DNA of 64,000 nucleotides from the NCBI GenBank assembly GCA_900095095.1, contig FMBT01000324.1, positions 124,001 to 188,000 of the forward strand. The letters are read 5' to 3'. Positions 9,165-24,071 of this stretch are shown here, one piece after another (positions within the stretch are counted from its first letter, which is position 1; every line of letters starts with the position of its first letter). The position numbers were made by a program, and so were the translations under genes. The notes under the pieces were generated by a model. That model was not told where the DNA came from, ran no database searches, and saw only the letters and a program-made list of their open reading frames with translations. Source of the DNA: Fragilariopsis cylindrus CCMP1102. Its lineage: Eukaryota > Bacillariophyta > Bacillariophyceae > Bacillariales > Bacillariaceae.

Positions 9165-11600
9165 ATGGTCATGGAGGATGACACGAAGAATCAAGATTCT
9201 CGGAAGGATAAAGATCAAGAAAACCATCCTATTTTGAGTAAAGATACATGGACTGAATCCTTTACTGATCGGCTGGTAGTTGCCAGGAACAATAATCATA
9301 ATCGCAATGACGGTGATGCATTTGTTCTACTAGAAAATGTTATGGAATCGGGACGAGGGAATAGTTTCTGTAATTGTCTTCGTGGCGAACTTGATTTATT
9401 TCTAGAAAAACTGAAGCCAGCACGAACAAAGGGTGACAACCATGCCGATACTACTATTCTAGAACTATTACAGTCGATGGGAACACAGCAGCTACATCCC
9501 GATCACCAGCCTAAGGAGAATCAACAACAACAAAAACCGCAAATATATTCTTCTGATAGTGTTCGTGGCGACAAGAATCTATTCATATCTAGAGAGTATC
9601 GACGACGAGACTCCTTTGCTACAAGAAATCCATATCTAAATCGGCTCATTGCCACTCTTTCAAACACATTTGAGCGAGAATTCAACTCTACGAGTAAACG
9701 CGTGGATGATAGATTGAAATTAGACCTTTCAATGACGTCAGTTCAGATTGCACTCTATCCTGGAGATGGTAAGAGTGGTTATCGCCGACATTGCGACAGA
9801 CACAACTCTTGCAAAGAAGAAGAAACAGGTAGTAACGAAGCAGACGTTGTAATTCAACAACAACTATCGCCAGATCCATTGACTCCCACATCAAAGAATG
9901 AACGTATCATTACTGCCATTTATTACCTAACGGATGATGATTGGGATGCTGAATTGGACGGAGGTGCACTTCGAATGTTTCATACTGATAATTCGGATTC
10001 AAATTCAAATACTGATGCTACAACCACTGTTAAATCTGATATGGAAGAGACAGATTTTTTCGACGTTGTCCCCTTTCGAGATCGTATGGTCGTATTTCGA
10101 TCTGATAGAATGGAACATCAAGTAATGCCGAGCCTTCGAAGACCACGACTTGCTATCACCCTTTGGTTCTATGGAACTATAGAAAAATTATCGACAAATT
10201 GTGACAGTATTATTACTGAAAGTGGCGATAAAACATCAACCAACGATACCGAATCTATAATATCACGTGAGCTAATTTCATCGCATGGTCGTCATCTTCC
10301 CCCACCGCTACCTATCAGTAGTCCGTCATCCCCACCATTATCGTCAATTGCCTCGCCAGCTGCTGGTTTTGATAGTAATTCAGTTCCAACTATCTTTGTT
10401 TCGATAGCAAGTTATAGAGACTCTGAAACTCGTCCCACACTTGATGCCCTGTTTTCTACAGCCAAAAATCCTAGCCGTATTTTTGCTGGTATTGTCGTGC
10501 AATTGGAGGAGAAGGTAAAATACGACGAAGATATCTGGAACAGTATTATGGCTGGAACTTCTCAAGCAGTGCACTCTTGGAAGCCACAACCGAATCAGGT
10601 ACGTTGCATACGACTCAATGCTCGTGATGCAACTGGCCCTTGCTATGCTCGAGGACTATGCCAAACTCTGTTTCGAGGAGAAGATTATTTTATGCAGATT
10701 GACTCGCATATGCGATTTCGAAAAAATTGGGATGAATATTTGATTCAAACCATACAGGGCCTACAGCAACAGCAGTACCATCAGACTAGTAATGAGAAAG
10801 GTCAATCTAACAACAAAATCGTACTAACAGCGTATCCCGTTGGATACACGCTTCCCAACAATATTCCACAAGAAACACGGGGAACATATCTGGTACCTTG
10901 GAAATTTGACAAGAACGGAATGCTACGACAACGAGGAAGACTTCTCAAAAGATCTGTTGACCAACCTGATATCGGTGGATTGAATCCCAATCTACACAAA
11001 CCTGTACGAGAGTACCCCCTTGCGATAACACATGCTCGTCGACAGTACTTGTATGCAGGAGGATTCAATTTCGGACCTGCCGAAGTAATTACAGATGTGC
11101 CTTATGATATGATGGGAATGCATCATCTATTCTTTGGAGAAGAATTGAGTATGTCTGTCAGATTATTTACTCATGGGTATGATTTGTATTGTCCAAATGA
11201 AACAGTTTGTTATCACTTGTGGAGCCGAGCTCATCGACCAAAAACGATAGATACTGCGACTGCTACTTCGACAGCGTATAAGCAACGACTTCAGAAGATA
11301 TCTATGGATAAAGTGAAGCAACAATTACTTGGAGACCAGATTGGGAAACCCTTCGGGTTAGGGAAAGCACGCACAGCTGCCACCTTTGCCGATAAATTAG
11401 GAGTTGACTTTCGGCGTCAAACTTTTGCACGCGAGGACTGGGAATTTGGCGAACTGTGTTCTGCAGATTTCGTGGGCGAAGACCACAACCGGGTGTGTTC
11501 TCGCTTGTTATTTCCTGAGGATAGTGTTGAAGCGAAGGTAGCATCGCTAGACACTAAGGCAAGAGAATTAATCGGGATGTTTTTAATGGGTATTAATTAA
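9165..11600 (+). CDS. Fusion: 2OG-Fe(II) prolyl hydroxylase + GT60 polypeptide GlcNAc-transferase
   Basis: One uninterrupted 811-residue frame with two enzyme domains. Residues about 50-340 form an oxygenase of the PHD/PhyA type: iron ligands HCD (His209, Asp211), an AIYYLTDDDWDAELDGGALR strand, distal His318 in MEHQVMP and the 2-oxoglutarate Arg328 in RRPRLAIT. Residues about 395-760 form a GT60 (PF11397-like) glycosyltransferase: TIFVSIASYRDSETRPTLDA at its start, NARDATGPCYARG, the metal-binding QIDSHMRF (Asp513, His515), and FFGEELSMSVRLFTHGYDLY near its end. In Dictyostelium and Toxoplasma the separate enzymes PhyA and Gnt1 hydroxylate one Skp1 proline and add GlcNAc to it in the cytosol. 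The lack of a signal peptide or membrane segment here fits a cytosolic place. A low-complexity linker rich in Ser/Pro (about 345-390) joins the domains. Substrate is inferred, not shown. Confidence 0.87.
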   Translation: MVMEDDTKNQDSRKDKDQENHPILSKDTWTESFTDRLVVARNNNHNRNDGDAFVLLENVMESGRGNSFCNCLRGELDLFLEKLKPARTKGDNHADTTILELLQSMGTQQLHPDHQPKENQQQQKPQIYSSDSVRGDKNLFISREYRRRDSFATRNPYLNRLIATLSNTFEREFNSTSKRVDDRLKLDLSMTSVQIALYPGDGKSGYRRHCDRHNSCKEEETGSNEADVVIQQQLSPDPLTPTSKNERIITAIYYLTDDDWDAELDGGALRMFHTDNSDSNSNTDATTTVKSDMEETDFFDVVPFRDRMVVFRSDRMEHQVMPSLRRPRLAITLWFYGTIEKLSTNCDSIITESGDKTSTNDTESIISRELISSHGRHLPPPLPISSPSSPPLSSIASPAAGFDSNSVPTIFVSIASYRDSETRPTLDALFSTAKNPSRIFAGIVVQLEEKVKYDEDIWNSIMAGTSQAVHSWKPQPNQVRCIRLNARDATGPCYARGLCQTLFRGEDYFMQIDSHMRFRKNWDEYLIQTIQGLQQQQYHQTSNEKGQSNNKIVLTAYPVGYTLPNNIPQETRGTYLVPWKFDKNGMLRQRGRLLKRSVDQPDIGGLNPNLHKPVREYPLAITHARRQYLYAGGFNFGPAEVITDVPYDMMGMHHLFFGEELSMSVRLFTHGYDLYCPNETVCYHLWSRAHRPKTIDTATATSTAYKQRLQKISMDKVKQQLLGDQIGKPFGLGKARTAATFADKLGVDFRRQTFAREDWEFGELCSADFVGEDHNRVCSRLLFPEDSVEAKVASLDTKARELIGMFLMGIN

Positions 11601-22631: not shown

Positions 22632-24071
22632 TCATATGTTGTTTACCTTATCGTATGCCATTACTGCCTGCTCGGCTACAGTTGAAATTCCTACGTTACT
22701 AAGTTCAGTCGAAATAACCTTACAATGATCGAATTCTGCCTTCTTTCTAACGATTGTACCGTTCTTAAATTTTGAAATCTTCACATCGACTTGACCTTTC
22801 CTTGACGTGTTAGTATAAGGAGTATCCACAGTTGTAATGGATCGATCAAGTTTTGCTCTTGGTACATTTCGATAGATTCGAACACCCAAAGTTAAGGTAT
22901 GAATGAATATGAGCTCCAATAGCGTATTAATAGTGTCATCGTCATCGTCGTCATTTAAAATATTATCTTTACACAAACAATGTAAAGTATGGGCTGGTCG
23001 TCCTTTTTTCATCACAATTGGCGTAACCCATACATCAAGTGCTCCATTATCCAGTAATATTTGAATCGCAAATGCCAGATTCTCGCCGGTGATGTCGTCT
23101 AAATTGGTTTCTAAGTGTGTTACATGATCGGAATGAAACAAAGAATTATTCAATGTGTTGTTGTAGTTGGGTATTCCAGAATCATCGGTTTCGCATCCTA
23201 TTACAATAGAAGTCGTATCATCATCATTTTCTTCGACGGTACCCCACCCACTTTGAAGGAGGATAAATGGTGTAACGCGGCACCGTAGTACGCGGATCAG
23301 CGCTGTACCGAATACCGTTGACAACAACACCGATTTTGATTTTGATCGCGAGGGAATAATTTCCAAAGAGTGAAGTAGTTCCTTCATGATGGCAGCTGTC
23401 GGAGATTGGACTGTGGTAATCATTGGTAGAGGTGAACATGAAACTTCTCGAACACCCATCGAATCTAAACATAGAAGTGTAGCAATAGTATAGAAAATGT
23501 GCAAATAAGCTATGTCGACGTTTTCGCGACGAAAGTCATCATCCGATTCTTCATCATCTTGGTTGTTGTTACTCGTATTGATTTTATATTTTCCACTAGT
23601 TTGGACTCTTTCATTTGCATTTAAAATTTCGTTTATGACACATTTCGTCGTTTTAGTAACCCAGTCTGTAAGTGCCTCCCACTTAACGACAGTGTAATCA
23701 AAAGTAAGACTTTTCAAAACGTCCATAATGATATTATGTTTGCTTCTTTCAACGTGAGCAGCAACGTGAGCTGATTGTGTTTGTTTAGCAGTAGTCAACG
23801 ATTGATTGCAAATTGTTACGAAAAGGCCTCCTGATGATTTGTTTTTTACTGCGGTCACCATCATGGATCTACTATTCTTGTTCGCATTGCCAAAAATAGT
23901 TGTCTGAAACCCTTCCAATACGTCGTTTGCGTAGTTTACATCCTTCCCATCTATATAAGCATCCAAGCACGCGGCCAAGAGTGCCTTCTCGCAGAGCAAT
24001 CCGTTGGAGCAATCCACATGTGCTTTGTATCTTTTGTTTAACCTTGAATTTTTTGAGGAATAATCAACCAT
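22632..24071 (-). CDS. larC: LarC-like protein (nickel-pincer cofactor biosynthesis family, DUF111)
   Basis: Single-exon protein of 479 residues. In bacteria LarC is a CTP-dependent cyclometallase inserting nickel into the pincer cofactor of lactate racemase. The C-terminal half matches the LarC catalytic region: LETNLDDITGENLAFAIQ, LLDNGALDVWVTPIVMKKGR, THTLTLGVRIY and VDTPYTN, then KVISTELSNVGIS. The N-terminal half keeps the general order of LarC1 (HVDCSNGLL..KALLAACLDAYI, then a His-rich histidine/alanine stretch AHVAAHVERSKH) but has lost the usual GISGDM motif, reading GLLCEK. An acidic insert DDEESDDD lies near 170-180 and DDDDDD near 355. There is no obvious targeting sequence. I see no lactate racemase nearby. 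The fold assignment is good; activity is uncertain because of the changed N-terminal motif. Confidence 0.83.
   Translation of the reverse strand: MVDYSSKNSRLNKRYKAHVDCSNGLLCEKALLAACLDAYIDGKDVNYANDVLEGFQTTIFGNANKNSRSMMVTAVKNKSSGGLFVTICNQSLTTAKQTQSAHVAAHVERSKHNIIMDVLKSLTFDYTVVKWEALTDWVTKTTKCVINEILNANERVQTSGKYKINTSNNNQDDEESDDDFRRENVDIAYLHIFYTIATLLCLDSMGVREVSCSPLPMITTVQSPTAAIMKELLHSLEIIPSRSKSKSVLLSTVFGTALIRVLRCRVTPFILLQSGWGTVEENDDDTTSIVIGCETDDSGIPNYNNTLNNSLFHSDHVTHLETNLDDITGENLAFAIQILLDNGALDVWVTPIVMKKGRPAHTLHCLCKDNILNDDDDDDTINTLLELIFIHTLTLGVRIYRNVPRAKLDRSITTVDTPYTNTSRKGQVDVKISKFKNGTIVRKKAEFDHCKVISTELSNVGISTVAEQAVMAYDKVNNI

Follow-up and report, generated by a model that had tools for sequence, protein, structure and literature searches.

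In other protists, a hydroxylase and a sugar-adding enzyme modify one proline of Skp1, a part of ubiquitin ligases. These enzymes, PhyA and Gnt1, are separate proteins in Dictyostelium and Toxoplasma; the diatom gene described here has the same enzyme families and the same expected reaction order, and its N-terminal half is nearest to Dictyostelium PhyA, whereas its two halves are fused. A hydroxylase and a transferase for the new hydroxyl also share one chain in animal LH3 and mimivirus L230, in which a collagen lysyl hydroxylase is fused to a glycosyltransferase; however, these proteins act on collagen and differ from the diatom protein in modified residue, transferase family, and compartment.

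A fused enzyme of the water mould Pythium, reportedly named Phgt in a 2019 abstract, is said to have rescued a Dictyostelium phyA knockout but not a gnt1 knockout, and it reportedly gave no sign of processivity or processive kinetics. The same study reportedly proposed a second Skp1 as a bypass, and the Pythium Skp1 isoforms are said to be very similar to each other. The title of the published reference announces a bifunctional hydroxylase-GlcNAc-transferase fusion for Skp1 in Pythium ultimum, and passages in PMC7864055 and PMC9485057 place Skp1 modification in this species. A passage of the review PMC8724618 describes enzyme pairs of the Skp1 pathway as frequently fused, and a passage of PMC3515798 includes diatoms among the groups with Skp1 pathway-like genes. 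This kind of fusion is therefore not new, as it is already known from Pythium. Going by the title, the Pythium case would share with the diatom case both activities in one protein, a stramenopile host, and differently modified Skp1 isoforms; in contrast, the host here is a diatom, and one diatom Skp1 lacks the proline outright. The diatom fusion is named nowhere in the portions of the literature covered by our search, the core pathway papers being outside that scope, and it may already have been reported.

We predict that the diatom gene encodes a cytosolic bifunctional Skp1-modifying enzyme of the Pythium type, and we assign this reading a probability of roughly 0.8.

Fusion gene and its domains

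The window is the whole 64-kb stretch of DNA that was analyzed (contig C69, positions 124001-188000) within a genome of 67.9 Mb in 818 contigs. The gene and its parts are located in the window as follows:

9165..11600, + strand: prolyl hydroxylase-GT60 fusion gene, single frame, 811 aa (ORF, Pfam)
9744..10172, + strand: 2OG-Fe(II) prolyl hydroxylase core, residues 194-336, with iron ligands H209, D211, and H318 and 2OG-binding R328 (Pfam, residue check)
10185..10388, + strand: Ser/Thr/Pro low-complexity linker, about residues 341-408 (sequence composition, frames)
10389..11327, + strand: GT60 GlcNAc-transferase domain with DSH metal motif at 513-515 (Pfam, alignment)

The ORF begins with ATG, has its stop within coordinates 9165-11600, and runs for 811 uninterrupted codons, whereas ORFs in 30 random 64-kb sequences, generated with an order-2 Markov model built from the window, reached 231 codons at most. 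A sequence-only reading of this DNA had proposed one unspliced frame for both domains, and at the DNA level this was borne out. The residues on which that reading relied (H209, D211, H318, R328, and D513-S514-H515) were all found at the positions claimed, and the families that it assigned to the two halves were recovered by Pfam with scores well above the cut-offs: 2OG-FeII_Oxy_3 (PF13640) at residues 194-336 (E 2.2e-16) and GlcNAc (PF11397) in two stretches, the best at residues 473-721 (E 2.6e-65). NCBIfam assigned no family to the fusion protein; in PHROGs, residues 409-753 matched a phage glycosyltransferase family, and there was a weak oxygenase match. Single-sequence structure prediction yielded a mean pLDDT of 31.3 and was unusable.

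The fusion gene is single-copy in the assembly, with only one other DNA match, 44 bases on contig C522. This stretch (C522:89989-90032) matches the gene's 3' end at 91%, and the frames near it resemble, by eye, fragments of copia-type retroelements.

One alternative is that two genes have been read as one, either because the hydroxylase and the GT60 protein have separate transcripts or because the join is an artefact. The fusion is seen at the DNA level, and the linker is of low complexity, with a second-position GC (0.58) that differs from that of both domains (0.42 and 0.41); this elevation is expected from Pro/Ser/Thr codons. Third-position GC is low throughout (0.25 in the linker, 0.30 and 0.34 in the domains). 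However, over linker residues 341-405, both other forward frames contain stops and the fusion frame contains none. No in-frame Met occurs between residues 321 and 462, and Met 462 already lies inside the GT60 domain, whereas profile positions 1-41 of PF11397 match window positions 10389-10511 (residues 409-449); a separate glycosyltransferase protein would thus need a start from another exon. Given these observations, the 811-codon ORF, and the same enzyme pair joined in Pythium according to the paper title, we consider two separate genes highly improbable and favor a single bifunctional protein.

The N-terminal half of this protein is a PHD/PhyA-type hydroxylase, as judged by sequence comparison, with Dictyostelium PhyA as the closest solved structure by a modest margin. 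When residues 1-340 were compared with solved chains, PhyA (6T8M) ranked first with 47.4 bits, and PHD2 (Egl nine homolog 1) reached at most 42.0 bits; with the full-length query, a PHD2 entry (42.8 bits) and PhyA (42.7 bits) were level, which is why the margin is modest. Based on a passage in PMC7864055, 6T8M comprises DdPhyA residues 60-284. All four residues H209, D211, H318, and R328 align with PHD2, and H318 and R328 align with PhyA.

Related genes in the genome and beyond

Of the genome's 46 PF13640 matches, two (on C439 and C343) were inspected besides the fusion gene. When an 81-residue PhyA fragment was aligned against the genome, the fusion gene was the top match (48.4 bits), followed by C439 (34.7), C216 (34.3), and C343 (27.7). 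The gene at C439:38109-38414, to which C216 scores similarly, encodes a PHD-like prolyl hydroxylase that is not fused and is extended by a long stretch at its N-terminus; its protein scored 50.3 bits with Trichoplax PHD, 48.5 with PHD2, and 32.5 with PhyA, and it is nearer to the animal PHDs than the fusion protein is. We rejected this gene, together with the similar-scoring C216, as the Skp1 enzyme based on a PhyA score lower than that of the fusion gene.

For the C-terminal half, PF11397 has at least 20 matches in the genome, and outside the window these fall on eight contigs. Matches on C439 and C213 have the same top score and layout and were counted once, as duplicates of a single locus; the other GT60 loci thus number seven (C469, C564, C439, C306, C109, C90, and C164). 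A passage in PMC8724618 credits diatom, oomycete, and other protist genomes with up to four such GlcNAc-transferase genes; with the window included, we counted about eight loci here. Within the DxH motif, D and H are invariant in all six aligned GT60 sequences from this genome.

Alternatively, the fusion protein could glycosylate hydroxyproline in the Golgi or in secreted proteins for the cell wall, as other GT60 enzymes would. Each of the seven other GT60 loci has, beside or within the match, an ORF with a hydrophobic, Golgi-like 19-mer (mean Kyte-Doolittle hydropathy 1.81 to 3.09); splicing of these ORFs to the GT60 matches is assumed, and on C90 and C164 the hydrophobic segment is in the C-terminal piece. 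In contrast, the fusion protein has no hydrophobic segment (maximum 0.90 by the same measure, which reflects hydropathy only), so that on hydropathy it lacks the N-terminal membrane anchor expected of a Golgi GT60 polypeptide alpha-GlcNAc-transferase, and its hydroxylase half is of the PHD/PhyA type. A role in cell-wall glycosylation is therefore very improbable in our judgment, and a cytosolic Skp1-modifying enzyme remains our preferred reading. The fusion partner and the missing hydrophobic segment suggest that the GT60 domain is of the Skp1 Gnt1 rather than the Golgi subtype.

We also searched for relatives of the fusion protein among viral, prokaryote, and phage sequences, a scope in which absence of the fusion says little about eukaryotes. 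In viral contigs, the fusion protein had no pattern match, and none of 10 stretches found with the GT60 alignment was confirmed; in a second collection, of genome contigs, none of 20 stretches was confirmed. Among phages, TBLASTN did not find the same fusion, and the three records that it returned matched the GT60 half only. These records (AP018399, OP883945, and OP752703) are large phages of Xanthomonas and Stenotrophomonas with a GT60-like transferase at 24-26% identity to the C-terminal half.

Enzymes that might act later in the pathway were sought in the same genome. On C117 (78447-80774), Pfam places a GT2 stretch in the last third of a 775-codon frame (563-618 of 746, 26.8 bits), at which position NCBIfam gave weak glycosyltransferase matches; PHROGs gave none. 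An early stretch of this frame resembles a sulfotransferase motif (by eye, unconfirmed), and a hydrophobic segment near residue 708 (mean hydropathy per 19-mer 1.97) may be an intron read as coding. Toxoplasma PgtA has the domain order GT74-GT2, according to a passage in PMC6939170; the C117 frame is a weak PgtA candidate only, since its first part is matched by nothing. Five of the six GT8 matches were read by eye, and no clear Gat1 was found among these five; several of them had hydrophobic N-termini and one resembled UGGT. GT32 has 23 unassigned matches in the genome.

The neighborhood within the window looks ordinary: nine of ten further frames have a Pfam match (the DUF6824 one below the cut-off), with families that include PPR, ORC2, MutS, type II topoisomerase, and WD40; no Skp1-pathway gene was seen among these 10 scanned neighbors. 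A 479-aa ORF at window positions 22632-24071 (- strand) was matched by PF01969 (E 4.4e-41) and by NCBIfam LarC2 (E 3.5e-34), which makes its product a nickel insertion protein of the LarC type.

Silicic acid transporters have 27 matches in the genome, the best of which (E 1.1e-226 and 2.4e-226) cover nearly the whole profile. Because a few silicified protists outside the diatoms have such transporters as well, they are a strong, although not absolute, indicator of a diatom; they agree with the diatom host that the sequence-only reading had named.

Skp1 genes

PF01466 identified five Skp1 matches in the genome (on C83, C816, C299, C560, and C438), whose first exons were identified by eye. Skp1-A, encoded on C83 and by a near-copy on C816, has the target proline in the motif NDFSPEEE (C-terminus FNITNDFSPEEEAQVREENKWCEEA). 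The sequence-only reading had called for a Skp1 with the conserved C-terminal proline and had named Skp1 as the likely target; Skp1-A supplies that protein within the same genome. In alignments, the Skp1-A proline falls opposite the first Glu of EEEE in PDB SKP1 chains (NDFTEEEE; species taken as human). This Glu is residue 147 of human Skp1, and a passage in PMC7864055 equates Glu147 with Dictyostelium Pro143 and Toxoplasma Pro154.

Skp1-B, located on C299 and C560 (99.8% identical in DNA), has Gln at this site in the motif NDFSQEEE (FNISNDFSQEEEAQVREESQW), and it aligns with Skp1-A at 62% identity over the exon compared. On C299 (103606-106746) and C560, Skp1-B looks intact and is otherwise a normal Skp1 match, with an Ala- and Glu-rich tail. 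A third, divergent Skp1 gene on C438 has SPEEE; the proline is thus kept in two of three Skp1 genes and lost in one.

The bifunctional enzyme might instead act on the proline of some other cytosolic or nuclear protein, as Skp1 is the inferred substrate and both domains were matched at the level of families. However, the Dictyostelium PhyA fragment finds the fusion gene best in this genome, and the genome encodes a Skp1 with the modifiable site; another substrate is therefore unlikely, if less so than the two alternatives above, and we retain Skp1 as the predicted substrate.

Discussion

If the fusion protein is a cytosolic Skp1-modifying enzyme, its activities, substrate, and oxygen dependence would follow those of the known pathway. 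With O2, 2-oxoglutarate, and Fe(II), the PhyA-like N-terminal domain would hydroxylate Skp1-A on the only proline close to its C-terminus (NDFSPEEE), and the GT60 domain would then add alpha-GlcNAc from UDP-GlcNAc onto the hydroxyproline. This GlcNAc would start a short glycan, which in turn would alter how Skp1 engages F-box proteins. The fusion would most simply provide equal dosage and a common dedication to Skp1; hand-over of the hydroxyproline between the active sites is possible, but channelling between them would not be required. With Gln at the site, Skp1-B would form SCF ligases that ignore oxygen control, as a bypass.

This proline-to-glutamine Skp1-B is the most interesting addition to the observation of the fusion. 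A tentative extension, which we hold to be possible but rather doubtful, is that the cell runs two parallel SCF channels: given enough O2, the fused enzyme would hydroxylate and glycosylate Skp1-A, whereas Skp1-B would stay permanently outside this control. In that case, the ratio of Skp1-A to Skp1-B expression would set the strength of oxygen's hold on the proteome, and the setting would be a cell that produces O2 itself in daylight and is possibly hypoxic at night.

The fusion itself leaves the known picture of the pathway unchanged, and our prediction would now place a fused Skp1-modifying enzyme in a photosynthetic protist. With a modifiable and a non-modifiable Skp1 in one genome, this diatom would come with an internal control for studying the effect of the modification.
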